In this document: piece after piece, positions 17,746 through 63,580 of the stretch
How the letters are laid out: the number at the start of each line of letters is the position of its first letter
How positions within the stretch are numbered: position 1 is the first letter of the stretch
From: Streptomyces sp. NRRL WC-3626
Lineage (GTDB): Bacteria > Actinomycetota > Actinomycetes > Streptomycetales > Streptomycetaceae
Direction: 5' to 3'
DNA: 64,000 bases
NCBI RefSeq assembly: GCF_000718785.1
Contig: NZ_JOCA01000004.1
Coordinates: 248,001-312,000 of the forward strand
Translations under genes and position numbers: made by a program
The notes under the pieces: generated by a model
Databases searched by the model: none
The model's input: the letters and a program-made list of their open reading frames with translations, nothing else
What the model was told of the DNA's origin: nothing

Positions 17746-17814
17746 CCGCGGGCAGGCGTCCCCGCCCCTCCGCGGGCAGGCGTGCCCGCCTCTCCGCGGG
17801 CAGGCGTGCCGCAG
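17746..17814. repeat. Tandem 24-bp repeat, about 2.9 units, each a small hairpin
   Basis: Units start at 17746, 17770 and 17794, each beginning CCGCGGGCAGGCGT. Each full unit can fold as GCGGGC-N6-GCCCGC or nearly so. The third unit runs directly into the family 1 repeat, whose own 5' end has the same sequence, so the array looks like slippage of the element end. Confidence 0.8.
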
Positions 17815-17868
17815 GGCGGCACGGGTGGGCGCGACGGCACCCCGCCAGCGCCGGGCCGCGCGACTCCC
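17794..17868 (+). repeat. Family 1 structured repeat, copy A
   Basis: Contains the core GTGCCGC-AGG-GCGGCAC hairpin followed by GGTGGGCGCGACGGCACC and a GCGCCGGGC tail. The same arrangement recurs at 17939, 28224, 59775 and 63499. Confidence 0.8.
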
Positions 17869-17938
17869 CCCGTCCCGCACCCACACCGTTGACCCGTGCG
17901 ACGCGGGGCTGGGTTCACTCGCCGGCGCTTGCCGGGTG

Positions 17939-17986
17939 CCGCTGCGCCCACCCGTGCCGCCCCAGCGGCACGACTGCCCGCAGCGG
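17939..17986 (-). repeat. Family 1 structured repeat, copy B (opposite orientation)
   Basis: On the minus strand the outer arms CCGCTGCG/CGCAGCGG are perfect, and the inner GTGCCGC/GCGGCAC stem and the GGGCAGTC and GGGTGGGC strands between them are present. It forms an inverted pair with copy A. Confidence 0.8.
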
Positions 17987-18032
17987 CGGCGGAGTGCGGC
18001 GGTGGGGCCGCAGGCCCCCGGGGGGCCTGTTG

Positions 18033-19058
18033 TCACGACGGTTGTGTCGAAGGTTCCGGCTCCGTCTCCGACACACGCCGCCGCCGCCGGCGTTTCAGCA
18101 GCGCCCACGCCCCCCGTGGACCGGACGGCATCGCCGCCGTGACCTCCGTGCCCGCCTCCGACGCCGCCTCCGCCGCCGCGCGGGCGACCGGCAGGAACCC
18201 CTCGCGACGCGCGGCGTCCGGCCGCTCCTCCTCCGCCGGCCACAGCCCCAGCGCCGCGCACGCCGTCGGCAGTACCGCCATCGCGGCGGTGGCGTACCCC
18301 TCCACCGAGGGGTGATAGCTGTCCGGCCCGAACAGCTCGCGCGGATGCGCCGCGAACTCCGGCCCCAGCAGATCCCCTAGCGACACCGTGCGCCCGCCCT
18401 GCTCCACCGCCCCGATCGTCTGCGCCGCCGCCAGCTGCCGCGAGGCCCGCCGGGCCAGCCACCGCAACGGCTGCCGCACCGGCTCGATCGTGCCGAGATC
18501 GGGGCACGTACCGACGACCACCTCCGCACCGGCCGTCCGCAGCCGCCGTACCGCCGACGCCAGATGACGTACGGAACGGGTGGCCGGCATGCGATGCGTG
18601 ACGTCGTTGGCCCCGATCATGATCACGCAGACGTCCGGCACCCGGGACGGATCCGCCAGCGCCCGCGTCACCTGCCGGTCCAGATCGTCGGAACACGCCC
18701 CCGGCACCGCCACCGTGCTCAGCCCCACCGGCCGCTCCGCGATCGCCGCCACCCCCGACGCCAGCAGCGCGCCCGGCGTCTGCCCGGCCCGGTGCACGCC
18801 CTGCCCGGCCGCCGTCGAGTCGCCCAGCATCGTCAGCCGCAGCGCCGGCTCGCCCGGCACCGTGTAGGCCGCGCCGTACAGCCCGTCTGCGTTCGGTACG
18901 TGAGGTGTCGTGCCGTTGCCCACGCGGCGCCGCGCCAGCTGGGCCTCGGCCACCAGCAGCCCCACCGTCGCCGCCCCGACCAGCCCGATGCCCCCGCCGC
19001 CGTACGCCGCGCCGGCCGCGATCCGCCGGGCAACCCTCGCCCTCGACATGCCCGTCAT
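18033..19058 (-). CDS. SGNH/GDSL-family hydrolase, membrane anchored or secreted
   Basis: Esterase-like protein of 341 aa. An N-terminal hydrophobic helix (about 12-38) acts as a signal or anchor. The SGNH blocks are present: block I MLGDSTAAGQG with Ser81, a Gly in VAVPGACSDD, block III GANDVTHR with the Asn, and block V DSYHPSVEGY near 260 with Asp and His. The C-terminal 60 residues are charged and include RRRRRR. Such enzymes deacylate sugars, lipids or peptides at the cell surface; the substrate is unknown. The start could be the first ATG or the Met at residue 4. Confidence 0.88.
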   Translation of the reverse strand: MTGMSRARVARRIAAGAAYGGGGIGLVGAATVGLLVAEAQLARRRVGNGTTPHVPNADGLYGAAYTVPGEPALRLTMLGDSTAAGQGVHRAGQTPGALLASGVAAIAERPVGLSTVAVPGACSDDLDRQVTRALADPSRVPDVCVIMIGANDVTHRMPATRSVRHLASAVRRLRTAGAEVVVGTCPDLGTIEPVRQPLRWLARRASRQLAAAQTIGAVEQGGRTVSLGDLLGPEFAAHPRELFGPDSYHPSVEGYATAAMAVLPTACAALGLWPAEEERPDAARREGFLPVARAAAEAASEAGTEVTAAMPSGPRGAWALLKRRRRRRVSETEPEPSTQPS

Positions 19059-19170
19059 GCTCCGCCGCCACCTCCCTCGAACCCGTACACCCAGTGCTTG
19101 CCCCGTACGGACCGTGCCCCAATCCCCACAGCGAGTGAACGACCCACCCGAGTCCCGCCCGGACAGGGCC

Positions 19171-21453: not shown

Positions 21454-23154
21454 CTACCCCTTGCACATCTTCTCGTCGGCCCGCGACTGGGTGACGTCCA
21501 CCTTCTTCGGCGCGGCGACGGGGACACCGGCCTTCTGGAAGTCGGGGCCGAGGGTGAGCGTCATCGGTTCCGTGTCCGCGGCGTCCGCCGTGCCCGGCTT
21601 CAGCGCCGAGGCGGGCAGACCCATCAGGTCGGCGAGCTTACGGGCCTGGTCGGCCTGGTTCGGCGCGTACTCCAGCCGCGTCTTGGCGACCTTCTCCGGG
21701 GCGTTGCCCTTGTTCGAGGACCTGGCGACGTCCTCGCCGGTCTGCAGCCAGTTCAGGGTGTCCTGCGCCGCACCCTGCGGGCCGCCGCCGTTGAACACGT
21801 CGACGCGGATCGCGGACGCCTCGGCCCGGGGGCCCTCCAGCAGCTTCGCCTGCTTGTCCTTGGCGTTCTTCTCCTTCTTCTTCACCTCGGTGAAGGAGAC
21901 GTCCTCCTGCAGCATGCCGAAGACCTGCGGGGCCTTGACCGGGTCCAGGACGACGGTGACGGGCGTGGGCTCGGCCGGGTTGTCCCGCACCGGCAGGGTC
22001 ATCAGGGTGATGTTCTTCAGGTCGATTTTGCCGAGTTCCTTGGCGAGGGTGAGCAGCTTGCCCGGGCTGCCGATGCCCTTGTCGACGGTGAGGGACTTGG
22101 TGGCCGCGTCGGCGACGTCGAGCATCTTCGACGGGCTGTCCAGCGTGTCCTCCTTCAGCTGGCGGAGCATCGAGGCGACGAACTTCTGCTGCATCTCGAT
22201 CCGGTCCAGGTCGCTCTCGTTCTTGAGACCGTGCCGGTTGCGCAGGAACGAGAGCGCCTCCTCACCCTCGACGGTGCTTTCCCCGACCGGCAGATCAAGT
22301 CCGGAACCGCCGTCCAGGTCCTTGAGGGGCTTCTCCAGGCACACCTCGACGCCGCCGACCGCCGTGGACAGCGTCTTGACCGCGTTGAAGTCGAACATCA
22401 TGAAGTGATCGACCTCGAGGCCGGTGACCTCCTCGACGGTGAGCATGGTGCAGCCGGGGTCGCGGCCGCCGACACCGTAGGACTCGTTGAACCTGGTGGG
22501 GGCCGTCGAGCCGGGTATCTCCTTGGTGGACCCGTCGGACTGTCTGGACTCGCAGTCCGGGATGTCGATCATGAGGTCCCGGGGGATGCTCATCACCGTC
22601 GCGTTGCTGCGGTCCCCGGCGACATGGAAGAGGAGCGTGGTGTCCGCGTGGCCGGTGACGTTGGTCCGGTTGCCGTAGTCCTCGTTGCCCTCGCCGGTGC
22701 GTACGTCGTTGCCGATGATCAGCAGGTTGACCGGCCCGTCCGCCAGCACCGTGTCACTGCCCACGTCACCGATGTCGACAGTGTTGATGTTGCCGTAGAG
22801 GCGGTCGTACCAGTAGTACGCGAACGCCGATCCTCCGACGAGGACCAGGCCCAGAACACCCCCCGTCCACATCAGCGCCTTCCTCCTGCCGCTCCGCTTC
22901 GGCCTGCGCTTGTGGTGGCCCGCAGTCTCCTCCTCGGCGGGCGCGGTACGCCGGCCGCGCTGGCCGGGGACGCGGGCGGGCGCGGGCGCCGCGGAGTCGG
23001 GGCGGGGTACCCCCGGCCCGGAGCCGGGGCCGGGTGTTCCCGGCGGCTCCGCGGGACCGTCCAGCCGCAGCTCGTAGTCACCGGTCCGCGGATTGAGCAC
23101 CCACTGGTCGGCGGGATCGGTTCCGTCCGCCCGTCCACGACTCTGTGCGTCCAC
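21454..23154 (-). CDS. LCP (LytR-CpsA-Psr) family protein 1
   Basis: Cell-wall glycopolymer ligase-like protein of 566 aa. The N terminus is cytoplasmic and Pro-rich (about 1-92), with one transmembrane helix at about 93-116. The LCP domain (about 130-330) shows the active-site signatures IIGNDVRTG, HADTTLL, MSIPRDL and FLRNRH. A LytR_C domain occupies about 430-530. It has four extracytoplasmic cysteines: IPDC, GCT, EVC and one four residues from the end. The GTG at 23154 was preferred because its VDAQ.RGRA start and the upstream GGAGGA site are shared with the paralogue at 56426-58198, which is its closest relative here. LCP enzymes attach teichoic-type or arabinogalactan-type polymers to peptidoglycan. 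Confidence 0.9.
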   Translation of the reverse strand: MDAQSRGRADGTDPADQWVLNPRTGDYELRLDGPAEPPGTPGPGSGPGVPRPDSAAPAPARVPGQRGRRTAPAEEETAGHHKRRPKRSGRRKALMWTGGVLGLVLVGGSAFAYYWYDRLYGNINTVDIGDVGSDTVLADGPVNLLIIGNDVRTGEGNEDYGNRTNVTGHADTTLLFHVAGDRSNATVMSIPRDLMIDIPDCESRQSDGSTKEIPGSTAPTRFNESYGVGGRDPGCTMLTVEEVTGLEVDHFMMFDFNAVKTLSTAVGGVEVCLEKPLKDLDGGSGLDLPVGESTVEGEEALSFLRNRHGLKNESDLDRIEMQQKFVASMLRQLKEDTLDSPSKMLDVADAATKSLTVDKGIGSPGKLLTLAKELGKIDLKNITLMTLPVRDNPAEPTPVTVVLDPVKAPQVFGMLQEDVSFTEVKKKEKNAKDKQAKLLEGPRAEASAIRVDVFNGGGPQGAAQDTLNWLQTGEDVARSSNKGNAPEKVAKTRLEYAPNQADQARKLADLMGLPASALKPGTADAADTEPMTLTLGPDFQKAGVPVAAPKKVDVTQSRADEKMCKG

Positions 23155-26506: not shown

Positions 26507-28171
26507 ATGTCCGGACCCCGCCCTGTCCGAGCGCCGCGCGGCACCGAACCGAGCGCCCTGGGATGGCAGCAGGAGGCCGCCCTGCGGATGCTGCAGAACA
26601 ACCTCGACCCGGAGGTCGCCGAACACCCCGACAAGCTCGTCGTCTACGGCGGCACCGGCAAGGCGGCCCGTGACTGGCGCTCCTTCGACGCGATGGTGCG
26701 GACCCTGCGCACCCTCAAGCAGGACGAGACGATGCTCGTCCAGTCCGGCCGCCCCGTTGGCGTCATGCAGACCCACGAGTGGGCGCCGCGTGTCCTCATC
26801 GCCAACTCCAACCTCGTCGGCGACTGGGCCAACTGGGAGGAGTTCCGCCGCCTGGAGGCCCTCGGCCTGACCATGTACGGGCAGATGACCGCCGGCTCCT
26901 GGATCTACATCGGCACCCAGGGCATCCTCCAGGGCACCTACGAGACCTTCGCCGCCGTCGCCGCGAAGCGGTTCGGCGGCACCCTCGCCGGGACGATCAC
27001 GCTCACCGCCGGGCTCGGCGGCATGGGCGGCGCCCAGCCGCTCGCCGTGACGATGAACGACGGCGTCGCGATCTGCGTCGACTGCGACCCGCGTGCGATC
27101 GAGCGCCGCATCGAACACCGGTACCTGGACGTGAGGGCCGACTCGCTCGACCACGCCCTGCGGCTGGCCGTCGAGGCCCGGGACCGGCGCGAGCCGCTGT
27201 CCATCGGGGTCCTCGGCAACGCCGCCGAACTGGTGCCGCGGCTGCTCGCCATGGGCGCGCCCATCGACATCGTCACCGACCAGACCTCCGCCCACGACCC
27301 GCTGGCGTATCTGCCGCTGGGCACGGCCTTCGAGGACATGGCGGACGCCGCGGCGAAGGGCCCGGCCGGTTTCACCACCCGGGCCCGGGAGTCCATGGCC
27401 CGTCATGTCGAGGCGATGGTCGGCTTCCAGGACGCCGGTGCGGAGGTGTTCGACTACGGCAACTCGATTCGCGGGGAGGCGCAACTTGCCGGATACGAGC
27501 GGGCGTTCGCCTTCCCCGGGTTCGTACCGGCGTACATCCGGCCGCTGTTCTGCGAGGGGAAGGGGCCCTTCCGGTGGGCGGCGCTGTCGGGTGATCCGGC
27601 GGACATCGCGAAGACCGACAAGGCGATCCTCGAACTGTTCCCGGAGAACGAGTCCCTGGCGCGGTGGATCAAGCTGGCGGGGGAGCGGGTGCGCTTCCAG
27701 GGGCTGCCGGCCCGGATCTGCTGGCTGGGGTACGGGGAGCGGGACAAGGCCGGGGAGCGGTTCAACGACATGGTGGCGAGCGGGGAGCTGGCCGCGCCGG
27801 TCGTGATCGGGCGGGACCATCTGGACTGCGGGTCGGTGGCTTCGCCGTACCGGGAGACCGAGGCGATGCTGGACGGGTCGGACGCGATCGCCGACTGGCC
27901 GCTGCTGAACGCGATGGTGAACGTGGCGTCGGGGGCGTCGTGGGTCTCCATCCACCACGGTGGGGGTGTCGGCATGGGGCGGTCGATCCACGCGGGGCAG
28001 GTGACCGTCGCCGACGGGACGGCGCTGGCGGGGGAGAAGATCCGGCGGGTGCTGACGAACGACCCCGGGATGGGTGTCATCCGGCATGTCGATGCCGGGT
28101 ACGACATCGCGGAGTCGGTGGCGGGCTCGCGGGGTGTGCGGGTGCCTATGCGTGAGGGTGAGTCGGCGTGA
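26507..28171 (+). CDS. hutU: Urocanate hydratase
   Basis: Urocanase of 554 aa, full length. It uses tightly bound NAD+ to convert urocanate to 4-imidazolone-5-propionate, step two of histidine breakdown. Conserved blocks include [13 protein letters not shown], the NAD-binding [34 protein letters not shown], and ARICWLG, whose Cys405 should correspond to the catalytic Cys. [17 protein letters not shown] is also present. The ATG at 26507 follows an AGGAGG site. Its stop overlaps the next start in GTGA, the first of two such overlaps linking hutU, the M20 gene and hutF. Confidence 0.97.
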
Positions 28172-29604
28172 GCGACGGCTTCTCTTCGGCGGGGGCGGGC
28201 GGGGCGTCGCCGTCCGCGGGTTCGGCTGTGCCCACCCGTTCCGCCCTGCGGAACGACTGCCCACAGCCTGGGGGTCCGCAGTCTGAGGGTCCGCAGCCTG
28301 AGGGCTCGCAGTCTGGCGGCCCACAGCCTGGGGGTCCACAGCCTGGGGGTCCGCAGCCTGAGGGCTCGCAGCCTGGGGGTTGTGGGGGGTCCTTTCTGGA
28401 GATGTGGCGGGCGTTGTCGCCCGTTGGGCGGCACGCCGGGTCCGGGGGGTACCGGCGGTTCGCGTGGAGCGGGGCCGATTCCGAGTGCCGGGCGTGGTTC
28501 GAGGAGCAGGTTCGGGGGCGGGGGCTGGCCTATGAGGTCGACCGGAACGGGAATCAGTGGGGGTGGGCCGGGGATCCGGCCGGTGGGGATGCGGTCGTCA
28601 CCGGGTCGCATCTCGACTCCGTGCCCGATGGCGGGGCCTTCGACGGGCCGCTCGGGGTGGTGTCCGCCTTTGCCGCGCTGGATGAACTGCGGCGGCGAGG
28701 TGCGCGGTTCGTCAAGCCGCTCGGGATCGTCAACTTCGGGGACGAGGAGGGTGCTCGGTTCGGACTTGCCTGTGTCGGGTCCCGGCTCACCGCCGGCGCG
28801 TTGACGGTCGAGCAGGCCCACCGGCTCACCGACGCGGACGGCATCACGCTCCCGCAGGCCATGGAGGCCGCCGGCCACGACCCCGGCGCCCTCGGCCCCG
28901 ACCCCGAACGGCTCGACCGCATCGGCGCCTTCGTCGAACTCCACGTCGAACAGGGCCGGGCCCTCGACCTGTCCGGCGACCGCGTCGGCATCGCGTCCGC
29001 CATCTGGCCGCACGGCCGCTGGCGGTTCGACTTCCGGGGCGAGGCCAACCACGCCGGCACCACCCGGCTCGCCGACCGGCGCGACCCGATGCTGCCGTAC
29101 GCCCAGACCGTCCTCGCCGCCCGCCGCGAGGCCGAACTCGCCGGCGCCGTGGCCACCTTCGGCAAGATCGCCGTCGAGCCCAACGGCGTCAACGCCATCC
29201 CCTCCCTCGTACGCGGCTGGCTCGACTCCCGCGCCGCCGGCCAGGAGAGCCTGGACGCCGTGGTCGAGGCCGTACGGGACGCCGCCCGCGCCCACGCGCG
29301 GGAGCACGGCGTCACCCTCGACGTCGAACGCGAGTCCTTCACCCCCGTCGTCGAGTTCGACCACGCCCTGCGCGACGAACTCGCCCGCATCCTCGGCGGC
29401 GGCACCGACCTCGAGGTGCCCGTCCTCGGCACCGGCGCCGGACACGACGCCGGAATCCTCTCCGGACGCGTCCCGACCGCCATGCTGTTCGTGCGCAACC
29501 CGACCGGCGTCTCGCACTCCCCGGCCGAGTACGCCACCGAGGACGACTGCGTGGCCGGAGTCCTCGCCCTCGCCGACGTACTGGAAGGACTGGCCTGCAC
29601 GTGA
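28168..29604 (+). CDS. M20 family amidohydrolase (allantoate amidohydrolase / N-carbamoylase type) in the hut operon
   Basis: Metal-dependent amidohydrolase of 478 aa. The family domain starts near residue 76 ([16 protein letters not shown]) and carries the di-metal motifs [28 protein letters not shown] and GAGHDAGI. In this operon the expected activity is hydrolysis of N-formylglutamate to glutamate and formate, because no HutG is present; this is inference. Residues 1-75 are abnormal. They are encoded by a copy of the family 1 repeat (28224-28268) and by seven 15-bp tandem repeats giving G-P/S-Q-P/S-E/G units (residues 36-70). The GTG start overlaps the hutU stop and the ORF remains open, so the enzyme is probably made with a low-complexity leader. 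Confidence 0.88.
28224..28268 (-). repeat. Family 1 structured repeat, copy C, inside the M20 coding sequence
   Basis: On the minus strand GGCTGTG/CACAGCC outer arms enclose GTTCCGC/GCGGAAC inner arms, with the conserved GGGCAGTC and GGGTGGGC strands. Both stems differ from copy B by paired changes that keep complementarity. Confidence 0.8.
28273..28377 (+). repeat. 15-bp tandem repeat, seven units, in frame
   Basis: Seven units of the pattern GG(T/C)CC(G/A)CAG(C/T)CTG(A/G)G encode [30 protein letters not shown] and GSQPG. All units keep the reading frame of the M20 gene. The array abuts copy C of the family 1 repeat. Confidence 0.9.
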
Positions 29605-51762: not shown

Positions 51763-51891
51763 GGGGGGACACCTCCGGACGACGGCCGTACGTGGGATCG
51801 TGAGCACGGTAGGCCGATACGATCTGCGGCCCGCCGGATCGCCCCCGGCACGCGCGGCGGTGTCCCCCGTTCGCGGTAACGTGAGCCCCCT

Positions 51892-52929
51892 ATGAACGCC
51901 AATCCCGACGTGCGGCTCCCCGCCGTTTCCGTGATCATGCCCGTCCTCAACGAGGAGCGGCACCTGCGTGGTGCCGTACGCGCGATCCTCGCCCAGGAGT
52001 ACGCCGGCGAGATGGAGGTCGTGATCGCCCTCGGTCCGTCCGCGGACCGCACGGACGAGATCGCCGCCGAGCTCGTGGCCGAGGACCCGCGGGTGCACAC
52101 CGTGCCCAATCCGACCGGCCGCACCCCGGCCGCCCTCAACGCGGCGATCAAGGCCTCGCGCCATCCGGTCGTGGTCCGCGTGGACGGGCACGGGATGCTC
52201 TCCCCGAACTACATCGCGACCGCCGTACGGCTCCTGGAGGAGACCGGCGCGCAGAACGTCGGCGGCATCATGCACGCCGAGGGGGAGAACGACTGGGAGC
52301 ACGCCGTCGCCGCCGCCATGACGTCGCGGATAGGCGTGGGCAACGCCGCCTTCCACACCGGTGGCGAGGCCGCGCCCGCCGAGACGGTGTACCTGGGCGT
52401 GTTCCGGCGGGAGGCGCTGGAGCGGCAGGGCGGTTACAACGTGGAGTTCATCCGCGCCCAGGACTGGGAGCTGAACTTCCGCATCCGTGAGGCCGGCGGG
52501 CTGATCTGGTTCTCGCCGGAGCTGAAGGTGTCGTACCGGCCCCGGCCGAGCGTGCGGGCGCTGGCCAAGCAGTACAAGGACTACGGCCGTTGGCGGCACG
52601 TGGTGGCCCGCTACCACTCCGGTTCCATCAACCTGCGCTATCTCGCCCCGCCGACGGCGGTGTGCGCGATAGCGGCCGGGATCGTGGTGGGCGCGGCACT
52701 GACCCCGTGGGGCTTCCTGGTGCCCGGCGGCTATCTCGCGGCGATCGCCCTGGGGTCCGTACCGGCCGGCAAGGGGCTGCCGCTGAAGGCACGGCTGCAG
52801 ATTCCGGTGGCGCTGGCGACCATGCACATGTCGTGGGGCTGGGGCTTCCTGACCAGCCCGAAGTCCCTGGCGAAGAAGGTCATCGCCTCACGCCGCCCCG
52901 CCGTCACCGCGGACGCGCCGGCCACCTGA
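51892..52929 (+). CDS. Glycosyltransferase family 2, ExoA-like
   Basis: Protein of 345 aa. The GT-A domain starts VSVIMPVLNEERHL; the nucleotide-sugar/metal region is VVRVDGHGMLS, and the acceptor-site motif is RAQDWELNFRIREAG. After position 240 there are one or two hydrophobic helices (about 255-285), as in ExoA-like membrane-associated transferases. It probably adds a sugar to a lipid-linked oligosaccharide. The ATG is divergent from LCP 3 and convergent with LCP 4, so it belongs physically to the wall-polymer region. Confidence 0.9.
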   Translation: MNANPDVRLPAVSVIMPVLNEERHLRGAVRAILAQEYAGEMEVVIALGPSADRTDEIAAELVAEDPRVHTVPNPTGRTPAALNAAIKASRHPVVVRVDGHGMLSPNYIATAVRLLEETGAQNVGGIMHAEGENDWEHAVAAAMTSRIGVGNAAFHTGGEAAPAETVYLGVFRREALERQGGYNVEFIRAQDWELNFRIREAGGLIWFSPELKVSYRPRPSVRALAKQYKDYGRWRHVVARYHSGSINLRYLAPPTAVCAIAAGIVVGAALTPWGFLVPGGYLAAIALGSVPAGKGLPLKARLQIPVALATMHMSWGWGFLTSPKSLAKKVIASRRPAVTADAPAT

Positions 52930-52941
52930 CGTTCCCGTCGT

Positions 52942-52980
52942 GCGTGAGCCCCTTCCCGGACGCCGGGAAGGGGCTCACGC
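52942..52980. terminator. Bidirectional terminator, perfect 18-bp stem
   Basis: Arms 52942-52959 and 52963-52980 with a 3-nt loop, between the convergent glycosyltransferase and LCP 4 genes. Confidence 0.92.
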
Positions 52981-52989
52981 GCGTTCGGT

Positions 52990-54570
52990 TCACCAGGTGA
53001 AGCCCGGGCTGACGTGCATGCACGCCTTGTCGTCGGCGCCGTTGAGCGCCTGTGCCGACTCGGGGGTGGTGTTGTCCTCCTCCGGCGCCTCGTAGGTCGT
53101 GCCCTCGCGCCAGTCGGCGCCGACCACGAGGGTGACGCCGGACACCTCGGTGGAGCGCTTCACCGCGCTCGCCGGGACGCCGAGGGCGTCGGCGACGCGG
53201 CGGGCGTCGCCCTCCAGGTCGGCGCTCGGATACCGCACCATCGTCCGCTTCTCGCTGAGGGCGCTGGTGGTGTCGGCGGTCGCCGCGGTGAAGCCCTGCT
53301 CCTTCAGCGCCGCCACGACCGTGCTGGTGCGCCCGGAGGCGGCGGCGAGGGTGTCCGTGCGGGTGCCGTTGCGGACCTGTACGGCGATGTCGGCGTCGTC
53401 GGCGGCCGGGTCCGACGGCGCCTTCTCCTCGGCCTCCACCGGCTCGGCGTCCTTGCCGTCGAGGGCGATGTCGTCGCGCACGAGACGGAACAGCTGCTCC
53501 GCGTCCTCGGTCGGCTCCACGCGGGCGCCCACGTACCGGTTGGGCATCGTCGTCATGGTGATGCGCTTCGGCTCCACCTTGCGCAGCTCGGTGCTCAGGT
53601 CGTACAGCTTCTTCACCGTGTCGAGCCCAGGGTCGACGGTGAGCGCCTCGGTGGCCTTCTCGGCCAGCCTGCGCAGCTTGTTGGGGTTGCTCAGCGTGGC
53701 GTTCTCACGCAGCTCGCGGACCAGTGAGTTCATGTACATGTGCTGCGCCTTGGCGCGGGCGAGGTCGCTGCCGTCCTCGAAGCCGTAGCGCGTGCGCAGC
53801 CATTGCAGGGCCTGCTCGCCCTTCACCGGGTGGGTGCCCTTCTCCATCTTCAGACCGGAACCGTGGCCCTGGCTGTCGCGCGAGTGGATGTTGGCGTCGA
53901 CGCACACCGGGACGCCGCCGACCGCGTCCGCCATGGAGACCACGCCAGCGAAGTCGACCATGACGAAGTGGTCGATGTGGATGCCGGTGAGCTCCTGCCA
54001 GGTCGCCACCGTGCAGCCGGGGCCGCCGTGTCCGAGGCTCTGGTTGGTCATCGTCCGCCCGTTGCTCGCCGGGTACACCGTCCCGTCGTCCGGGTCCGTG
54101 CACTTGGGGATCTCGAGCAGGGTGTCGCGCGGCATGCTGACCACGGACATGTTGGACCGGTCGGCGGACAGATGCACCAGCATCTGCACATCGGCGAGCG
54201 GGGTCGAGCCGAACGTCTCGCGGGCGCCGCCGAGTTGCTGGTTCTTCTCGGTGTCCCGCGCGTCGCTGCCGATGAGCAGGATGTTCAGCGGGGTCTGTCC
54301 GGCCGCGTTCGGCGTCGGCTGGGCGACCTTGGTGTCGCCCAGGTTCAGGGCGTCCTTCTTGATGTTGTGGTTCAGCTGCCGGTAGTAGAGGTAACCGGCC
54401 CCGGCCGCACCGACTATGAGCAGGGCGAGGACCGCCGCGAACCATTTGAGCAGCCGGCGCGCGCGCCGCGGGCGGGGGCCGCCCTCGTCCTCGCCCTCGG
54501 TCGGACTTTCGTCCGGGTCCACCTCACGCTCGCCGTCACCGAGCGTCTCCGGTGCGGCGTTCCGCGTCAC
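52990..54570 (-). CDS. LCP family protein 4
   Basis: Protein of 526 aa. The N terminus is acidic and cytoplasmic (1-40) with one helix (about 41-64). The LCP domain (about 90-290) has LLIGSDARD, LADVQMLVHL, VSMPRDT and WLRTRYG; LytR_C lies at about 400-500. Cysteines: IPKC, PGC, PVC and one in the C-terminal ACMHVSPGFTW, four in total. It is closely related to LCP 5, sharing the NAAGQTPLN and C-x-x-x-x-x-x-x-x-x-W endings, so the pair is a recent duplication. The GTG at 54570 (VTRN) was chosen by analogy with LCP 5. Confidence 0.88.
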   Translation of the reverse strand: MTRNAAPETLGDGEREVDPDESPTEGEDEGGPRPRRARRLLKWFAAVLALLIVGAAGAGYLYYRQLNHNIKKDALNLGDTKVAQPTPNAAGQTPLNILLIGSDARDTEKNQQLGGARETFGSTPLADVQMLVHLSADRSNMSVVSMPRDTLLEIPKCTDPDDGTVYPASNGRTMTNQSLGHGGPGCTVATWQELTGIHIDHFVMVDFAGVVSMADAVGGVPVCVDANIHSRDSQGHGSGLKMEKGTHPVKGEQALQWLRTRYGFEDGSDLARAKAQHMYMNSLVRELRENATLSNPNKLRRLAEKATEALTVDPGLDTVKKLYDLSTELRKVEPKRITMTTMPNRYVGARVEPTEDAEQLFRLVRDDIALDGKDAEPVEAEEKAPSDPAADDADIAVQVRNGTRTDTLAAASGRTSTVVAALKEQGFTAATADTTSALSEKRTMVRYPSADLEGDARRVADALGVPASAVKRSTEVSGVTLVVGADWREGTTYEAPEEDNTTPESAQALNGADDKACMHVSPGFTW

Positions 54571-54616
54571 TGCCGCCGTTCTCCCCACTCCTGGCAACCC
54601 CTCGCCTCGTGAAGCA

Positions 54617-54652
54617 GGCCCGTCCTGCGTCCTGTTAGACGCACGACGGGCC
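54617..54652 (-). terminator. Hairpin between LCP 4 and LCP 5
   Basis: 15-bp stem with one mismatch (54617-54631 with 54638-54652). A similar hairpin with the same GGCCCGTC-type arms occurs at about 56379-56423 before LCP 6, suggesting the terminators were duplicated with the genes. Confidence 0.75.
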
Positions 54653-54722
54653 CGTCAGTTGCCCCGGTAATCCAACCGACTTCAACAAGTTACGCGGGAG
54701 CGCGGGAGGCTTCGGGAGGGCG

Positions 54723-56351
54723 CTACCAGCGGTAGGGCTTGTACACGTCCATGCACGTGCCCGTCTCCGCGCCGTTGAGGGCGTCGGCGTCGTCCGGCAG
54801 GTCACCGGCGGCGGGCGGAGCCTGCTCCGGATAGTCCGTGCCCTCACGCCAGTCCGCGCCGATCACGACCGTGACACCGGAGACATCGGCGGACTGCCTG
54901 ACGGAACTCGCCGGGATGCCGAGCGACTCGGCGACCCGCCGGGCGTCCCCCCGCGAGTCCGCGGCCGGATACCGTACGGCGGTCCGCTCCTCGGCGAGCG
55001 CGCGGGAGGTGTCCGGCGCGGCGCGGGTGAAGCCCCGCGTCACCAGGGACTGGGCGATCTCCTTGGCCCGCCCGCCGACGGGGCCGAGGGTCGCGGAGCG
55101 GGTGGCGTTCTGCACGAGGACACCGATCTCGGCGTCCGGGGCGGCGGGGTCGGCGGAAGCCTTGTCCTCGTCCTTCTCGTCCCTGCCGCTCGCCGTGTCC
55201 TTGCCGCCCTTGCCGCCCTTGTCGTCGAAGGACACGTCGTCGCGGAGCATGGTCCACACCCGCTCGGCCTCGTCGCCGGCCGCGAGCAGATGGTTGCCGT
55301 TCTGCGGGTCCTCGACCGTGGGCAGCGTCGTCATGGTGATCCGGTCCGGCGGCACCGTCTTCAGCTGCATCCCCAGGTCGTACAGCTTCTTCACCGTGCC
55401 GATCTCCTCCGAGACCGTCAGCGAACTGGTCGCCGCCTCGGCCAGGTCCATCAGCCTGCCCGTGTCGGTGAACACGTTCTGGTCCCGCAGGGTGCGGATC
55501 ATCGAGTTCATGTACATGTGCTGGGCCCGCGCCCGCAGCAGGTCACTGCCCCAGGCGTGCCGGGTGCGCAGCCACTGCAGCGCCCGCTCGCCCTCGACCT
55601 TCTCCGACCCGGCCTTCATCTTCAGGCCCGAACCGCCGGGCACGCCGGGCAGCGGACGGTCCCACACGTTCTGGTTGACGCACACCTCGACGCCGCCGAT
55701 GGCGTCGGCCATCGACACGACGCCGGCGAAGTCGATCGTCATCCAGTGGTCGATGTAGACACCGGTGAGGTTCTCCCAGGTGGCCAGGGTGCAGCCGGGG
55801 CCGCCGCGGGCCAGCGAGGTGTTGATGATGTCGTTGGTCGCCGGGTAGCGGTCCCCGGTCTTCGGGTCGGTGCACGCGGGGATGTCGACCCGGGTGTCGC
55901 GCGGGATGCTGACCACGGCCGCGCTCTCGCGGTCGGCGGAGAGGTGGATCAGCATCTGCACATCGCCCAGCGGCGGATTGCCGCGGGTGTCCCGGCCGCC
56001 GCCGAGCGCGACGTTCTTGGCGGAGGCGCGGCTGTCGGAGCCGATCAGCAGGATGTTCAGCGGCGTCTGCCCGGCCGCGTTGGGCCCGGTCCGGTGCGCC
56101 TTGGAGTCACCGCTGCTGCGCTCACCCTTCTCAATGTTGCCGTTCAGATGCTCGTAGTACAGGTAACCGGCGCCGGCCGTCCCGAGTATCAGTACGGCCA
56201 GGGTCGTCGCCGACCAGCGCAGCGCGCGCCGGCCCCGCCCGGCGGACGGTCCCCGTCTGCCTTCCGGCGGGCCGTCGGTGCCGTCCGGGGCCTGCGGCCC
56301 GCCGTCCGGCAGACCGGGTCCGGGCTCCTCCTGCACACCGCTCCGCGTCAC
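54723..56351 (-). CDS. LCP family protein 5
   Basis: Protein of 542 aa. Cytoplasmic N terminus (1-45), one helix (about 46-68), LCP domain (about 95-300) with LLIGSDSRA, LGDVQMLIHL, VSIPRDT and WLRTRHA, and LytR_C at about 415-515. Four extracytoplasmic cysteines: IPAC, PGC, EVC and the C-terminal TCMDVYKPYRW. The linker after the LCP domain is Lys/Asp-rich (about 370-400). The GTG at 56351 has GGGGAG nine bases upstream; the GTG at 56357 is too close to that site. Closest paralogue in the window is LCP 4. Confidence 0.88.
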   Translation of the reverse strand: MTRSGVQEEPGPGLPDGGPQAPDGTDGPPEGRRGPSAGRGRRALRWSATTLAVLILGTAGAGYLYYEHLNGNIEKGERSSGDSKAHRTGPNAAGQTPLNILLIGSDSRASAKNVALGGGRDTRGNPPLGDVQMLIHLSADRESAAVVSIPRDTRVDIPACTDPKTGDRYPATNDIINTSLARGGPGCTLATWENLTGVYIDHWMTIDFAGVVSMADAIGGVEVCVNQNVWDRPLPGVPGGSGLKMKAGSEKVEGERALQWLRTRHAWGSDLLRARAQHMYMNSMIRTLRDQNVFTDTGRLMDLAEAATSSLTVSEEIGTVKKLYDLGMQLKTVPPDRITMTTLPTVEDPQNGNHLLAAGDEAERVWTMLRDDVSFDDKGGKGGKDTASGRDEKDEDKASADPAAPDAEIGVLVQNATRSATLGPVGGRAKEIAQSLVTRGFTRAAPDTSRALAEERTAVRYPAADSRGDARRVAESLGIPASSVRQSADVSGVTVVIGADWREGTDYPEQAPPAAGDLPDDADALNGAETGTCMDVYKPYRW

Positions 56352-56378
56352 CGTCACCGTCTCCCCCTCGCACCACGC

Positions 56379-56423
56379 AACGGGCCTGCCCCGCGCCCTG
56401 TAGGACGCGGAACAGGCCCGTCA
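56379..56423 (-). terminator. Hairpin between LCP 5 and LCP 6
   Basis: ACGGGCCTG/CAGGCCCGT outer arms with a partly paired inner CCGCG/CGCGG stem, directly after the LCP 6 stop on the minus strand. It resembles the hairpin at 54617. Confidence 0.7.
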
Positions 56424-56425
56424 GG

Positions 56426-58198
56426 TCACTTGGCGCACTCGACCTTGTCCGCCGTGGACTTCTCGATGTCGTCGGGCGCCTTGTCCGGAGTCGTGAGCGG
56501 GATGCCGGCACCCTTGAAGTCCTTGCCGAGCGTCAGCGTCATCGCGGGCACGCCCTGCGAGTTGGTGACGCTCTCGCCGGGCTTCATCGCCGACCCGGAC
56601 AGCCCCAGGATGTCGGCCAGACGGCGTGCCTGGGCGGCCTGGTCGGGGGCGTACTCCAGCGTCGTTTTACTCAGTTCCTCCGGCGCGTTGCCGGCGTTCT
56701 CCGACTTGTCGACGCCCTGCTCCACCTGCAGCCAGCTGAGGGTCTCCTGGGCACTGCCGGACTTGGCGCCGCCGTTGAGGATCTGCACCCGCACCTCGGA
56801 GGCCGGTGCCTTCTCGCCCTTCAGCCGGGCGGCGACGGCGGCCTTCTCCTTCTTCTTCTGCTGCTTGACCTCGGTGAAGGAGACGTCGTTCCTGATCAGG
56901 TCGAAGATCGCCGGGGCCTTCGCCTCGTTGAGGACGACGGTCGCCTTCACCTTCTCGGCGGGGTTGTCCAACACCGGAATCGTGGTGAAGGACAGGTTCT
57001 TGGTGTCGAGCTTGCCCAGCTCCAGACCGAGGTCCTTGAGCTTGTTGATGCTGTCCAGCTGGGAGTCGACGGTCAGTGCCTTGGTCCCCGCCTCCGCCAG
57101 CTTGATCATCTTCGTCGGGCTGGTGAGCGTGTCGTTCGACTTCAGCTTCCGCATCAGCGAGCTCAGGAACTGCTGCTGCAGCTCGATCCGGCTCAGGTCG
57201 CCACCCAGACCGACGGAGTGCCGGGTCCGTACGAACGCCAGCGCCTCCTCGCCCTCGATGGTGTGTGTGCCCTTGGGCAGCTTCAGATGCGAGTCCGGGT
57301 CGTCGATGTCCTTGGCCAGGCAGACGTCGACGCCGCCGACGGCCGACGTCAGCGTCTTCACCGCGTTGAAGTCGGCCACCATGAAGTTGTCCGGCGTGAT
57401 GCCGGTCAGCTCCGTCACCGTCCGCATGGTGCAGCTGGGCGTACGGCCGTCCTGGCCGAGGCTGGTGTTGAAGCGGGCGCCGGTGGAGCCCGGGATGATC
57501 TTCTCGCTGCCGTCCTCCTGCTGCGTCGGGCAGTCGGGGACGTCGACTATCAGGTCACGCGGAATGCTCAACGCGGTCGCGTTGGAGCGGTCCTTGGAGA
57601 CATGCAGCAGGAGCGTGGTGTCGGCGTGACCCTCGCTGCCCGCGTCCCCGTATCCGTCGTTGCCCGAGCCGGTGCGCTTGTCGGTGCCGATCAGCAGGAT
57701 GTTGATCGCCTTGTCCTTGCTGAAGCCACCCGTACTGGCGCCGTCGTCGGAGACGGACTGGATGTTGTCGTTCAGATGCTCCAGATAGAGGTAACCGGCC
57801 GTACCGGCGGCGAGCACCACGAAGGCCATCGTGCCGCCGGTCCACAGCAGGACCTTCTTCGTCCTCGACTTCTTCTTCGCCGGCCGGCGCCCGCGCCGCC
57901 CCGGGGGCGGCTCCTCCGGCGCGCCCCGGCGTCTGCGCTGCGGCGGCACCTCACGGTCCGGGGACTCCCGGTCCGGTGCGTCCCGGTCCGGTGTCCCCCG
58001 CTCGCGTTCGGGCGCGCGGCCCGACGGTGCCGGCCGGCCGCGTCCCGCGCCCGGGGGGCGTGGATTACGCGGCCCCGGGACCGCTGATTGCGGTGCGGAA
58101 GGGCCCAGTCGCAGTTCGTATTCGCCGGTGTCCGGGTTGAGCACCCACTGGTCTGCGGGATCGATGTTCTCCGCCCGCCCACGGCCTTGCGCGTCCAC
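56426..58198 (-). CDS. LCP family protein 6
   Basis: Protein of 590 aa, the closest relative of LCP 1. It shares the VDAQ.RGRAENIDPADQ N terminus and the sequence NPAEKVKATVVLNEAKAPAI after the LCP domain. The long cytoplasmic tail is Pro/Arg-rich (1-112) with RRRGRRPAKKKSRTKK before the helix at about 118-138. The LCP domain has LLIGTDKRTG, HADTTLLLHV, LSIPRDL and FVRTRHS. LytR_C lies at about 455-560. Four cysteines: VPDC, PSC, DVC and ECAK at the end. The GTG at 58198 was chosen because this N terminus and its GGAGGA site are conserved in LCP 1. Confidence 0.88.
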   Translation of the reverse strand: MDAQGRGRAENIDPADQWVLNPDTGEYELRLGPSAPQSAVPGPRNPRPPGAGRGRPAPSGRAPERERGTPDRDAPDRESPDREVPPQRRRRGAPEEPPPGRRGRRPAKKKSRTKKVLLWTGGTMAFVVLAAGTAGYLYLEHLNDNIQSVSDDGASTGGFSKDKAINILLIGTDKRTGSGNDGYGDAGSEGHADTTLLLHVSKDRSNATALSIPRDLIVDVPDCPTQQEDGSEKIIPGSTGARFNTSLGQDGRTPSCTMRTVTELTGITPDNFMVADFNAVKTLTSAVGGVDVCLAKDIDDPDSHLKLPKGTHTIEGEEALAFVRTRHSVGLGGDLSRIELQQQFLSSLMRKLKSNDTLTSPTKMIKLAEAGTKALTVDSQLDSINKLKDLGLELGKLDTKNLSFTTIPVLDNPAEKVKATVVLNEAKAPAIFDLIRNDVSFTEVKQQKKKEKAAVAARLKGEKAPASEVRVQILNGGAKSGSAQETLSWLQVEQGVDKSENAGNAPEELSKTTLEYAPDQAAQARRLADILGLSGSAMKPGESVTNSQGVPAMTLTLGKDFKGAGIPLTTPDKAPDDIEKSTADKVECAK

Positions 58199-58442
58199 GT
58201 CGCTTGAATCCTCCGTCGGGCCCACGCGGCGCCTTTCCCCTCCCAAGGCGCTCGGGTCTCGGTCACACAGTGCGGGATTCTCAGGACAGGCCTGAAGGAA
58301 CGGACGCACCGGAGCGCTCACACTAACGGTCCAGATCGAGTGGAAGCGACGGCGGTGACGAATTCCACTTCCTCACAAGTGGGCAATCCACCCATTTCCT
58401 CGGACAAAGGTGCGGTGCCTTGGAGTTGACTTGGAGCAGGCT

Positions 58443-59606
58443 TTACGCACAGATGTCCTCGGCGGCCGTGTTTCCCGAGAACGTCGGTGCCGGAGAGGGG
58501 TTGCCGGACGGCTTCCCCGATTTCTTTTCCGTGGCCTTTCGGTCACCGTCCGTGTCGACGACCACGGGCGCGTCCTTGCGCAGCCGCTCGAACAGATTCT
58601 CCGCGGCGGGTTGCGCGAGCTGGTCCCGATTCACGTCCCCGCTGTACGGCTCCCGGGGAACGGTCAGGAATTGCACGCCTTCCGTGGGGACGTCACGCAG
58701 CCCGCGCACAAGGTCGTACAGACTTCGCAGACTGGCCAGTCCCGGGTCGGTGGTGAGGGACGAGGTGGCCGCGTCCAGAACGGGATAGAGCTTCACCGGA
58801 TTCAGCAGTACGTCATTGCCGCTCACCTTGTTGACGAGCGCGCCGAGGAAGCGCTGCTGCCGTTCCATACGGCTGGTGTCGCTGCCGTCGCCGAGGGTCT
58901 TGCGGGCGCGGACGTAACCGAGCGCCTGTTCCCCGTTCAGCGTCACCCGGCCGGCCGGCAGCCTCAGCTCGGCGTCCTTGTCGTCGACGGGCTCGCGCAA
59001 ACACACCTCGACGCCGTCCACCGCGTCGACCATGTCCTTGAACCCGGCGAAGTCGACGACCACGTGATGGTCGATCCGGATATCGGTGAGCTTCTCCACT
59101 GTACGGATGGTGCACGCCGAACCGCCCACGGAGAAAGCGGAGTTGAACATCGTGAACACCGGCGTGGAACGCGACCCGCCGGGTCGGCGGCAGTCGGGCA
59201 CGTCCACCATCAAATCCCGGGGGATGGACACCGCGGTGGCGCTGCGCCGGCCGGTCGACAGATGCAGCAGGATCACGGTGTCGGACCGTTCCGTCCCCGC
59301 GTCGTGCCCGTAGCGGGCGTTCTCCTGCCCGGAGCGCGTGTCCGAGCCGATCAGCAGGATGTTCCGGGCGCCCTCGGTGAGCGTGGCGGGCCGCTCCTTC
59401 TCGTACCGCGCGAGTTCGGCCGCCGCGGCCTCGTCCGGGGTGATGTTCCGCTCGAGCTTCATGTACACCACCCACCCGGCGCCCGCGGCGCCGAGCAGGA
59501 CGACGACGGCCGCGAGCCCGGCCCCGAACGCCCACCGCCGTCGCCGGCGCCGCGCCCGCCCACGCCCACTCGCCGAGGCCCCGTGCACGCCCGCGGACTC
59601 ACTCAT
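58443..59606 (-). CDS. LCP family protein 7
   Basis: Protein of 387 aa. A short basic N terminus (1-23, RRRRRR) precedes a helix at about 25-48. The LCP domain (about 80-285) has LLIGSDTRSG, RSDTVILLHL, VSIPRDL and YVRARKT. A LytR_C domain is missing; the Ser/Pro-rich C terminus ends with EDICA. Still it has the four-cysteine pattern (VPDC, SAC, EVC, ICA). The ATG at 59606 begins the family sequence; a GTG seven codons earlier is possible. Confidence 0.87.
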   Translation of the reverse strand: MSESAGVHGASASGRGRARRRRRRWAFGAGLAAVVVLLGAAGAGWVVYMKLERNITPDEAAAAELARYEKERPATLTEGARNILLIGSDTRSGQENARYGHDAGTERSDTVILLHLSTGRRSATAVSIPRDLMVDVPDCRRPGGSRSTPVFTMFNSAFSVGGSACTIRTVEKLTDIRIDHHVVVDFAGFKDMVDAVDGVEVCLREPVDDKDAELRLPAGRVTLNGEQALGYVRARKTLGDGSDTSRMERQQRFLGALVNKVSGNDVLLNPVKLYPVLDAATSSLTTDPGLASLRSLYDLVRGLRDVPTEGVQFLTVPREPYSGDVNRDQLAQPAAENLFERLRKDAPVVVDTDGDRKATEKKSGKPSGNPSPAPTFSGNTAAEDICA

Positions 59607-59980
59607 GCCAGCGCCATCCCTCACCACGTACGGTCCCGTACGACGATGCCCCGAAAGCCGGCTACAAGCCCCCCGCTACTACGCCACCCGAGCGACCGAC
59701 CACCGCGGCACCCTCGCGATCCGCGCCCAGTCGCTGCCGTTGGGTCGGCAACCCCGGCCCGCCGCGTCACGCCTCCGCTGCCGCGGGCAGTCGTGCCGCT
59801 GGGGCGGCACGGGTGGGCGCGACGGCACCCCGTGAGCGCCGGGCCGCGCGAACACCCCCGGGTCCGCCCAACGCGCGGCACCGCACAACGTGCCCCGCCA
59901 ACCTCAAGCGGCCCCGGCCCTTCAATCCCGCGAGTGCCGGCCCACGCCAACACCCCCGGCCCCAGACACAACGGCGGGCG
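59607..59980. other. Intergenic region upstream of LCP 7 with a family 1 repeat
   Basis: 374 bases between two minus-strand genes. The first part should contain the LCP 7 promoter. The rest is occupied by copy D of the family 1 repeat. No gene seen. Confidence 0.7.
59775..59860 (+). repeat. Family 1 structured repeat, copy D
   Basis: CCGCGGGCAGTCGTGCCGCT, then GGGGCGGCACGGGTGGGCGC, then GACGGCACCCCG and the tail GCGCCGGGCCGCGCGAAC followed by ACCCCCGGGTCC. The tail is shared with copy E almost base for base. Confidence 0.85.
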
Positions 59981-62242: not shown

Positions 62243-62281
62243 GACGGGCCGGGCGCTCCTTCCTGCCGGAGGCGGTCTGCA

Positions 62282-62313
62282 TACACTGGCCGGCCGAAAG
62301 ACAGTTCGGCCGG
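62282..62313 (+). promoter_or_regulatory. Candidate -10 (TACACT) and leader hairpin of the nucleotidylyltransferase gene
   Basis: TACACT at 62282-62287 is a plausible -10. Just after it, CCGGCCGAA (62290-62298) and TTCGGCCGG (62305-62313) form a 9-bp hairpin at the predicted RNA 5' end. It could stabilise the mRNA or, alternatively, end amidase transcription. Confidence 0.45.
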
Positions 62314-62338
62314 TCCCGGCAGGAAGCAGAGACGACAG

Positions 62339-63421
62339 GTGACAGAAGCGATTCTCCTGGTCGGCGGCAAGGGCACGCGGCTGCGACCGCTCACGGTGCA
62401 CACGCCCAAACCCATGGTCCCGGCGGCCGGGGTGCCCTTCCTCACGCACCAGCTGGCGCGGGCGCGGGCGGCGGGCGTCGAGCACATCGTCCTGGCCACG
62501 TCGTATCTGGCCGAGGTCTTCGAGCCGTACTTCGGCGACGGGGCGGCGCTCGGGCTGCACATCGAGTACGTGACGGAGGAGGAGCCGCTCGGCACGGGCG
62601 GCGCGATCCGCAACGTCGCGTCGCGGCTCCGGTCGGGGCCGGACGAGCCGGTGCTGGTCTTCAACGGGGACATCCTGACGGGGCTGGACATCCGGGCGCT
62701 GGTGCGGACGCACGAGACGATCGGCGCGGACGTCTCGCTGCACCTGACGCAGGTGACCGATCCCCGCGCGTACGGGCTGGTGCCGACGGACGCGTCGGGG
62801 AGGGTGCTCGCCTTCCTGGAGAAGCCGCAGACGCCGGAGGAGATCGTCACCGATCAGATCAACGCGGGGGCGTACGTCTTCCGCCGGTCGGTGATCGACA
62901 CGATCCCGGCGGGGCGGGTGGTGTCGGTGGAGCGGGAGACGTTCCCCGGGCTGCTGGCGGCGGGAGCGCATCTGCAGGGCATGGTCGACTCGACGTACTG
63001 GCTGGACCTCGGGACGCCGGCGGCGTTCGTACGAGGGTCGGCGGATCTGGTGCTGGGCCGCGCGCCGTCGCCGGCGGTGCCGGGGCGCTGCGGGGACCGG
63101 CTGGTGCTGCCCACGGCGACCGTGGCACCCGACGCGAAGCTGGCGGGCGGGACGGTGGTGGGCGAGGGCGCGTTCGTGGCGGAGGGCGCGCGCGTCTTCG
63201 GCAGCACGATCCTGCCGGGGGCGGTCATCGAACCGGGCGCGGTCGTCACGGACTCGCTGATCGGTACACGCGCCCGAGTGGGCGAACGCACGGTCCTCAC
63301 CGGCACGGTGATAGGCGACGGCGCGACGATCGGCCCCCACAACGAACTCCGGTCCGGCGCCCGGGTCTGGTGCGACGCCACAATCCCCGCAGGAGCGCTC
63401 CGCTTCTCCTCGGACCAGTAA
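62339..63421 (+). CDS. Sugar-1-phosphate nucleotidylyltransferase (mannose-1-phosphate guanylyltransferase type)
   Basis: Protein of 360 aa. The nucleotidyltransferase domain (1-230) carries LLVGGKGTRLRPLT, KPMVPAAG, PLGTGGAIRNV, VFNGDIL and FLEKP. The C-terminal part (about 255-355) is a left-handed beta helix of hexapeptide repeats (ATVAPDAKLAGGTVVGEG). It makes GDP-mannose, or another NDP-sugar, from the sugar-1-phosphate; the substrate base is not certain from sequence. The GTG at 62339 follows AGACGACAG. It supplies activated sugar, consistent with the surrounding wall-polymer genes. Confidence 0.9.
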   Translation: MTEAILLVGGKGTRLRPLTVHTPKPMVPAAGVPFLTHQLARARAAGVEHIVLATSYLAEVFEPYFGDGAALGLHIEYVTEEEPLGTGGAIRNVASRLRSGPDEPVLVFNGDILTGLDIRALVRTHETIGADVSLHLTQVTDPRAYGLVPTDASGRVLAFLEKPQTPEEIVTDQINAGAYVFRRSVIDTIPAGRVVSVERETFPGLLAAGAHLQGMVDSTYWLDLGTPAAFVRGSADLVLGRAPSPAVPGRCGDRLVLPTATVAPDAKLAGGTVVGEGAFVAEGARVFGSTILPGAVIEPGAVVTDSLIGTRARVGERTVLTGTVIGDGATIGPHNELRSGARVWCDATIPAGALRFSSDQ

Positions 63422-63498
63422 CGCCCCCGGCGCCCGCACGACCGCCCCCACCCCGGCGGTAGTGCCGCAGGGGCGGCAAACCCACCCCACCCCCGCCA

Positions 63499-63580
63499 GC
63501 CGCGGGCAGTCCTGCCGCTGGGGCGGCACGGGTGGGCGCGACGGCACCCCGCAAGCGCCGGGCTGCGCGAACACCCCCGG
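63499..63580 (+). repeat. Family 1 structured repeat, copy E
   Basis: Same order as copy D, with CTGCCGC in one inner arm in place of GTGCCGC. It is followed by two direct repeats of GTCCACCTCAACGCA (63581 and about 63632). Confidence 0.85.

Follow-up and report, generated by a model that had tools for sequence, protein, structure and literature searches.

What is the short palindrome that recurs along a 64,000-nucleotide stretch of the Streptomyces sp. NRRL WC-3626 genome, and how does it come to be there? The stretch, called the window here, covers positions 248,001 to 312,000 of contig NZ_JOCA01000004.1 (C4:248001-312000 of the 7.9 Mb draft genome, G000). The original prediction held that five copies share an outer stem, an inner stem and two conserved strands, and offered three options: a repeat like a miniature inverted-repeat transposable element (MITE), a protein-binding DNA hairpin, or an RNA motif. 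Anatomy and placement narrow these to a palindrome like the repetitive extragenic palindromes (REPs) and bacterial interspersed mosaic elements (BIMEs), and no gene for a REP-associated tyrosine transposase (RAYT) was found with it. With moderate confidence we regard the family as a REP-like, non-autonomous mobile palindrome of Streptomyces. It has a predicted fold with covarying stems, convergent composites of two copy types and placement at gene 3′ ends, and its copies are present or absent between species, kept or decaying at the same place.

The palindrome and its covarying stems

Covariance model R1, run on both strands of the window with filters off, returns five matches, all with E ≤ 3.6e-11; the runner-up (E = 0.046) is the reverse strand of copy B. 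Because R1 was built from copies of the family that include these five, the five match by construction. An independent 34-base pattern (up to 3 mismatches, fixed loop length) recovers three of the five and finds none in 100 shuffles. The copies are as follows.

17792..17836, + strand: copy A, type I; outer stem CTCCGCG/CGCGACG, 3-nt loop AGG; R1 63.7 bits, E 3.6e-11; predicted DNA fold -16.3 kcal/mol, z -2.1
17940..17985, - strand: copy B, type II; outer stem CGCTGCG/CGCAGCG, 4-nt loop TGGG; R1 73.9 bits, E 2.3e-13; predicted DNA fold -23.1 kcal/mol, z -6.2
28224..28268, - strand: copy C; outer stem GGCTGTG/CACAGCC, inner stem GTTCCGC/GCGGAAC, loop AGG; R1 66.1 bits; at the 5′ end of an M20-peptidase-family open reading frame (ORF)
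59779..59824, + strand: copy D, type I; R1 71.9 bits; between a LytR-CpsA-Psr gene and a gene with an AMP-binding domain (Pfam)
63498..63543, + strand: copy E, type I; R1 66.4 bits; one inner-stem mismatch; downstream of a nucleotidyltransferase gene (Pfam PF00483)

The five copies thus stand as predicted, and so does their occurrence in both orientations, both between genes and, for copy C, within a called ORF. The window is a small sample of the genome: G000 holds 99 copies by a strict pattern and 146 by a looser one, the reversed-pattern control giving 0 for both. Some copies lie within about 300 bases of contig ends (C1:10, C3:74, C6:150, C13:115, C8:361309, C22:136948 and C38:30460), and the draft assembly may therefore be interrupted at the repeats.

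The repeat unit is about 46 nt long. Its outer stem measures 4 to about 10 bp and its inner stem about 8 bp, and the loop has mostly 3-5 nt; between the stems lie two 2x2 mismatch regions flanking a paired CA/TG. As single-stranded DNA, copies B and C are predicted to form a single long imperfect hairpin that runs through the outer stem, a GG/GG mismatch, a C-G and an A-T pair, a second mismatch and the inner stem to a loop of 4 (B) or 3 nt (C). The strands GGGCAGTC and GGGTGGGC had been described as shared by all copies and unpaired. They are conserved, except that copy A carries GGGCAGGC where GGGCAGTC was claimed; they are not unpaired throughout, since in the predicted DNA fold CA/TG and C-G pairs form between the mismatches. 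Outer and inner stems are found in every copy, the outer with 7 bp in B and C and only 4 bp (CGCG/CGCG) in A, D and E, and the inner stem of E with one C.C mismatch.

The 113 G000 copies used for set A1, the composites and the gene context have at most one mismatch in the conserved strands and at least 6 of 7 inner pairs. By the five bases flanking the core, 38 are TCCGC/GCGAC (type I, partly paired) and 29 are GCTGC/GCAGC (type II, fully paired); minor forms are CCTGC/GCAGG (5), GCCGC/GCGGC (4), GCTGT/ACAGC (3) and GTTGT/ACAAC (1), and the remaining 33 are mostly additional type I forms ending in GCGAC. After many copies a second, variable hairpin (CACC and a short stem) can be seen by eye.

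The paired changes reported between copies B and C are confirmed by sequence in both stems: CTGCG/CGCAG in B faces CTGTG/CACAG in C in the outer stem, and GTGCCGC/GCGGCAC faces GTTCCGC/GCGGAAC in the inner. Among 51 distinct G000 sequences, double changes fall in 29 cells, against 9.4 ± 2.2 in shuffled data. Set A2 (41 sequences, the five window copies and 36 of 43 sequences from other genomes) has 67 double-change cells against 19.7 ± 5.3 shuffled, with none of 500 shuffles as high, and sliding the structure along the alignment leaves 5-13. Four sequences judged unrelated by eye, L174 (different stem register), L129 (identical to copy B) and L182:1501 were left out of A2. The shuffles and slid partners are the only control for phylogenetic background.

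Both sets were partly chosen for pairing, most A2 loci having first been found with R1, which favors it. We therefore scanned a further 13 genomes for a pattern in which the inner stem is left open and the conserved strands are fixed together with a single G and a single C in the outer stem, which removes the bias for the inner stem. The pattern has 264 matches and its reversed form 7. Part of these matches were listed and yielded 54 distinct sequences (none from G004, G006, G014, G015 or G040; a few evident chance matches were kept in the count). All six inner pairs form in 32 of them and at least five in 42, where shuffling gives 0.7% and 5.9%; at the free outer position, 6-42, the same sequences have T-A in 31, C-G in 10 and a non-Watson-Crick combination in 13. 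In G089 the conserved strands are kept while the inner stem is swapped for unrelated ones, e.g. CAGCCCC/GGGGCTG, so it is the conserved strands that stay fixed, and the stems can be exchanged.

Double changes thus exceed both shuffles and slid structures, and at the variable stem positions the changes come as matched pairs across lineages, not as random changes in recently spread copies. Within the limits of these controls, this supports the claim that the fold is, or was, under selection or is maintained by a mobility mechanism dependent on it. Stems that change in matching pairs around two fixed inner strands suggest that the folded shape is recognized by something.

Composites and distribution

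Neighboring copies less than 600 bp apart form 27 pairs in G000, 18 convergent, 8 tandem and 1 divergent. The spacing is 147-151 bp in 15 of the 18 convergent pairs; each of these joins a type I to a type II copy, and in 14 of the 15 the loops are 3 and 4 nt. Copies A and B, convergent to each other, make up one of them:

17792..17985, no strand: A-B composite, convergent type I/type II, like a BIME or a REP doublet forming a hairpin (REPIN); core-to-core distance 148 bp; RNA fold of 17780-18000, z -9.2

Convergent pairs are also present in G004, G008, G015 and G098. Conservation of the composites fades a few bases beyond the two feet, with no clean duplication at the ends.

For the A-B site, R1 finds no copy in 18 loci from relatives, some of which span only one side. 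The gap between the flanking matches is 23-65 bp in G003, G009, G011, G016 and G017 and 77 bp in G001, compared with 305-327 bp in the window. The closest genome compared, G345 (90-93% identity in most matching blocks near the sites), shares copy C, carries a type I copy at site E and lacks any copy at A-B and at D. The intergenic region of site E also holds type II copies in G111 and G020; their surroundings are very different, and insertion on separate occasions is indistinguishable there from turnover. Comparing orthologous loci, as the original prediction proposed, thus yields differences in presence and absence; it yields no clean empty site at A-B, hutU, D or E. The MITE-like option fits the fixed-spacing inverted composites and the absence of the A-B composite from relatives, but neither a target-site duplication nor a clean junction was seen. 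For a MITE of a DDE insertion sequence (IS), we find composite ends that fade, no clean empty site, and no transposase recognized by eye in the listed neighbor clusters.

A looser pattern finds the family in 125 of 293 genomes of the order, falling in 2 of 9 genera. Outside Streptomyces there is one copy, in one (G527) of five genomes from other genera of the family, and there is none in 15 genomes from other families of the order. In named genomes at least 117 stretches match, and the 80 listed are all titled Streptomyces save one ‘Actinobacteria bacterium’. Some species have no copy and others as many as about 150. The 5.7 Mb genome G089 has 149 pattern matches with several inner-stem subfamilies and no PF01797 match, and is a good place to look for a mobilizer.

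Placement beside genes and the hutU site

Copies crowd the 3′ ends of genes and avoid divergent promoters. Convergent genes flank 41 of the 113 G000 copies, codirectional genes 38 and divergent genes 4, with 5 inside called genes and 25 at locus edges; the intergenic bases of the window, the sole background used, would give 10, 42 and 31 for the first three classes. Genes were called with a simple caller, and both partners of each composite are counted, so the counts are not independent events.

Copy C lies at the junction of hutU with the gene downstream.

28168..29604, + strand: M20 peptidase-family ORF (Pfam PF01546, E 8.8e-21), probably an allantoate amidohydrolase
28259..28393, + strand: in-frame 15-bp tandem repeats adjoining the foot of copy C (direct-repeat family D4; translation)

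The copy is in frame and would form part of a predicted N-terminal extension of the M20-family protein. We compared 53 hutU-site loci, picked by similarity to the window, so that the fractions are no census, and with predicted translations. A start codon overlapping the hutU stop (GTG, or ATG/TTG) is in frame with a conserved downstream Met-Trp in 51 of the 53; of the two exceptions, L116 looks like a false anchor. Across species the copy is intact, decayed or absent: the exact 14-residue peptide predicted from the intact palindrome occurs in 9 of the 53 loci, and the empty forms begin with VSFHSMW or a close variant. Several species have another repeat, in frame, in place of the palindrome's apex, and a foot grown into in-frame tandem repeats. 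A few copies appear to have been absorbed as in-frame peptide. The hutU series thus offers a palindrome intact, decayed or absent within an apparent coding sequence, and the family as a whole is a concrete source of species differences in 3′ regions and in one N-terminus among Streptomyces. The replacing repeat at the apex is CCCCCACTCTCAACTTCGTTCGAGCGGGGGGACCCCCATC, or near it, in L228, L234, L235, L238, L241, L243 and L245, the frame being kept. At the hutU site of G018 (L156/L260) the copy is reversed in orientation at the same place and is also in frame, through independent insertion or inversion.

Placement of this kind raises the question of whether the element is primarily a functional RNA at mRNA 3′ ends, acting in stability or termination, with a protein bound through the mismatched helix and the fold kept by selection on the RNA. 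Beyond the 3′-end bias and the avoidance of divergent promoters, this reading can claim the very stable RNA fold of the A-B composite, a wobble-compatible intermediate in G084 and the palindromic 3′-untranslated-region fragments reported from S. coelicolor RNA-seq (PMC4681348). Orientation speaks against it: codirectional copies occur on both strands (25 on the strand of the genes, 13 on the opposite one), and at the hut locus the GGGCAG strand of most intact copies runs antisense to the operon, with G018 the opposite way. No T-run follows the five hairpins on either strand by eye, as an intrinsic terminator would have. At gathering thresholds Rfam leaves the repeat unmatched, its only match in the window being a cyclic di-AMP riboswitch at 1-130. 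The copies missing from relatives' A-B loci, and a copy number that runs from nothing to about 150 between species, also fit poorly with it. We hold this reading to be doubtful as the primary explanation; an RNA role acquired after insertion is possible.

Proposed mobilization of the palindrome

As a mobile REP-like element the family would work as follows. The GGGCANNC and GGGTGGG strands barely vary and the stems are free as long as they pair, from which we infer recognition by a protein through these strands; the protein would read them in the folded single strand and would copy or move single palindromes and composites. Insertions near promoters would be purged and those behind genes tolerated, so that copies would accumulate at 3′ ends. 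The stem swapping narrows down which nucleotides such a binding protein would have to read. From the G-runs a G-quadruplex was considered as well.

Truncated neighbors of the copies bear on whether any dedicated mobility is needed. Two lie in the window:

17744..17791, + strand: tandem shortened 5′ halves (TCCGCGGGCAGGCGTSCCCGCC) upstream of copy A, from reading the sequence
63463..63478, + strand: partial hairpin remnant upstream of copy E; weak R1 match (E 0.41) to model positions 16-31 only, and reading of the sequence

In G000, shortened tandem copies of a foot with no second full copy lie on the 5′ side of 23 copies and on the 3′ side of 8 (107 copies with enough flank; p 0.011), and 16 of the 113 copies have an extra 5′-half motif with no full copy within 80 nt upstream. 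Several of these duplications break, by eye, at the same short sequence (e.g. GTGCCGC). Together with the half-like stretch left at A-B in G345, such traces are what would be expected if replication slippage, template switching and gene conversion provoked by the hairpin sufficed to spread and homogenize the repeat. Slippage-type duplications are local events, whereas some 100 places, heterotypic composites of fixed spacing and the inner-stem subfamilies of G089 call for copying over long range, and we consider it improbable that the family arose with no dedicated mobility.

A REP-like family of this size raises the question of what moves it. RAYTs are thought to move GTAG REPs, and the family has much in common with these: a short imperfect palindrome with compensatory subfamilies, inverted heterodimers (the 15 at 147-151 bp) and an extragenic position with 3′-end bias (41/38/4). 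Among copies with four or more outer pairs, GTAG occupies positions -8 to -5 in 9 of the 50 from G000 and in 8 of the 57 from elsewhere, and two more have it one base further out. In the 25 commonest hexamers listed per set, G predominates at position -5, A or C at -6 and C or T at -7; GTAG is missing from the type I flanks inspected. A strict GTAG tag was therefore rejected on counts, frequent as the tetramer is. CGTC is found in one own copy (CGTCGC) among the hexamers listed, so that a terminal CGTC tag is no feature of the family.

G000 itself has one gene matching PF01797, beside an OrfB/TnpB-type gene and with no copy of the repeat in the fetched flanks. PF01797 matches occur in 47 of 150 genomes of the genus, and are missing from 14 of the 21 genomes richest in R1 matches (14 or more each). 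Thirty Y1 loci were fetched: 29 carry the class 1 motif Y...Q of IS200/IS605, 1 was left unclassed, and none has a copy in about 1.5 kb of flank (best E 0.59). No RAYT (class 2 Y1) flanked by the repeat was therefore found in the 30 loci, weaker PF01797 matches lying outside this search. Mobilization by a RAYT, pursued through PF01797 in G000 and the 150 genomes, the flanks of the 30 loci and their tyrosine motifs, was given up for want of a link. Nor does a recurrent neighbor stand out: 343 neighbor proteins were clustered, and among the 25 of 36 clusters listed no transposase was seen by eye.

With neither a strict GTAG tag nor a linked RAYT, we do not file the family as a GTAG REP. A standard REP family whose RAYT was gained and lost horizontally, or was missed here, among the weaker matches or because the PF01797 model passes over it, would account for the parallels in architecture, for the GTAG counts and for a weak co-occurrence of PF01797 with the repeat (26 of 65 genomes with R1 matches and 21 of 85 without; Fisher p 0.052); against it stand the class 1 motifs and empty flanks of the Y1 loci and the copy-rich genomes without PF01797, and we judge it unlikely. 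Carriage by plasmids or phages can be dismissed, as the plasmid collection holds a single weak match to a copy and the phage collection none.

Several points count against a mobile REP-like element. No mobilizer could be linked to the repeat through the Y1 loci or the neighbor clusters, and the co-occurrence with PF01797, weak as it is, belongs on the same side. There is no clean insertion junction or target-site duplication at the A-B, hutU, D or E sites, even against G345. At the A-B site of G345 (L379, about 4360-4410) a short stretch, ATCCGCGGACAGCCGCGCCGC, looks like the decayed remains of a 5′ half; a gain in G000 is therefore indistinguishable from a loss in G345, and at site D the intergenic sequences of G345 and the window do not align. 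Copies C and E are also present in G345, and C in many species, so that much of the distribution may be vertical. R1, run on the genus as the original prediction had suggested for a covariance model (at most 41 scored candidates per genome), matches in 65 of the 150 genomes. The fold of copy E is no better than that of its shuffles (z -0.24), and near-identical copies could also spread by gene conversion. The check in G345, which gave presence differences with no clean junction, left our confidence in a REP-like mobile palindrome as it was.

How does the family compare with described systems? GTAG REPs, BIMEs and REPINs (in E. coli the y and z REPs) share the imperfect hairpin with conserved mismatches (in E. 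coli), the heterodimers with partners of unlike loop length, tandem clusters, intragenic units, 3′-end and convergent-gene placement, and subfamilies with alternative complementary stems. According to PMC3733652, REPs dimerize, some families with different loops; they lie mostly between unidirectional and convergent genes and are also intragenic, and their subfamilies have alternative complementary stem bases. The Streptomyces unit differs in being longer (about 46 nt), in its two 2x2 mismatch regions and near-invariant GGGTGGG, in having only a partial GTAG and no RAYT gene found flanked by copies, and in being almost confined to Streptomyces here; PMC3733652 describes 24 GTAG families and lists GTAG repeats in Proteobacteria, Cyanobacteria, Chloroflexi and the Planctomycetes-Verrucomicrobia-Chlamydiae (PVC) group. 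TnpAREP of E. coli requires the GTAG tag and a mismatch bulge (PMC8266576). CGTC REPs, including Rickettsia RPE-4 and RPE-6, also have intragenic copies and seem to lack a dedicated transposase (PMC3733652); unlike them (CGTC tag, stems of 8-9 bp), the present family has a CGYM-like flank, rarely CGTC, and a longer, mismatched stem. IS200/IS605 elements and their non-autonomous ends share the hairpin, which is recognized as a folded single strand (PMC8266576); unlike them, the copies flank none of the 30 Y1 loci and form inverted composites. A search of the literature, with subscription papers outside it, gave no title describing this repeat family, none of five of its sub-sequences and no Streptomyces paper with both REPIN and RAYT, and the main text of RepRanger (PMC12306157) has no word beginning with Streptom.

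More tentatively, the family may be a REP-like superfamily, a mismatched-helix motif (GGGCANNC opposite GGGTGGG) carried on interchangeable stems and mobilized by an enzyme outside the Y1/RAYT group, which would amount to an undescribed hairpin-recognizing mobilization system in the genus. The family is large, reaching about 100-150 copies in single genomes, and shares much of its architecture with REPs; with no RAYT found, the question of its mover becomes testable in tractable bacteria.

The window has other features apart from the palindrome. The riboswitch at 1-130 (+ strand; ydaO/yuaA leader) is cut by the 5′ end of the window and lies upstream of an ORF at 134-853. Three copies of a second dispersed repeat family (AGCCCCTCCGGCGTTTGAGGAGCGGGGTC...GGAGCCCCGG) were listed, at 34571-34652, 42245-42326 and 50202-50283. 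Diverged direct repeats at 21454-22872 and 48296-59627 correspond to several genes resembling LytR-CpsA-Psr paralogues, of which that at 58443-59627 is confirmed by Pfam.

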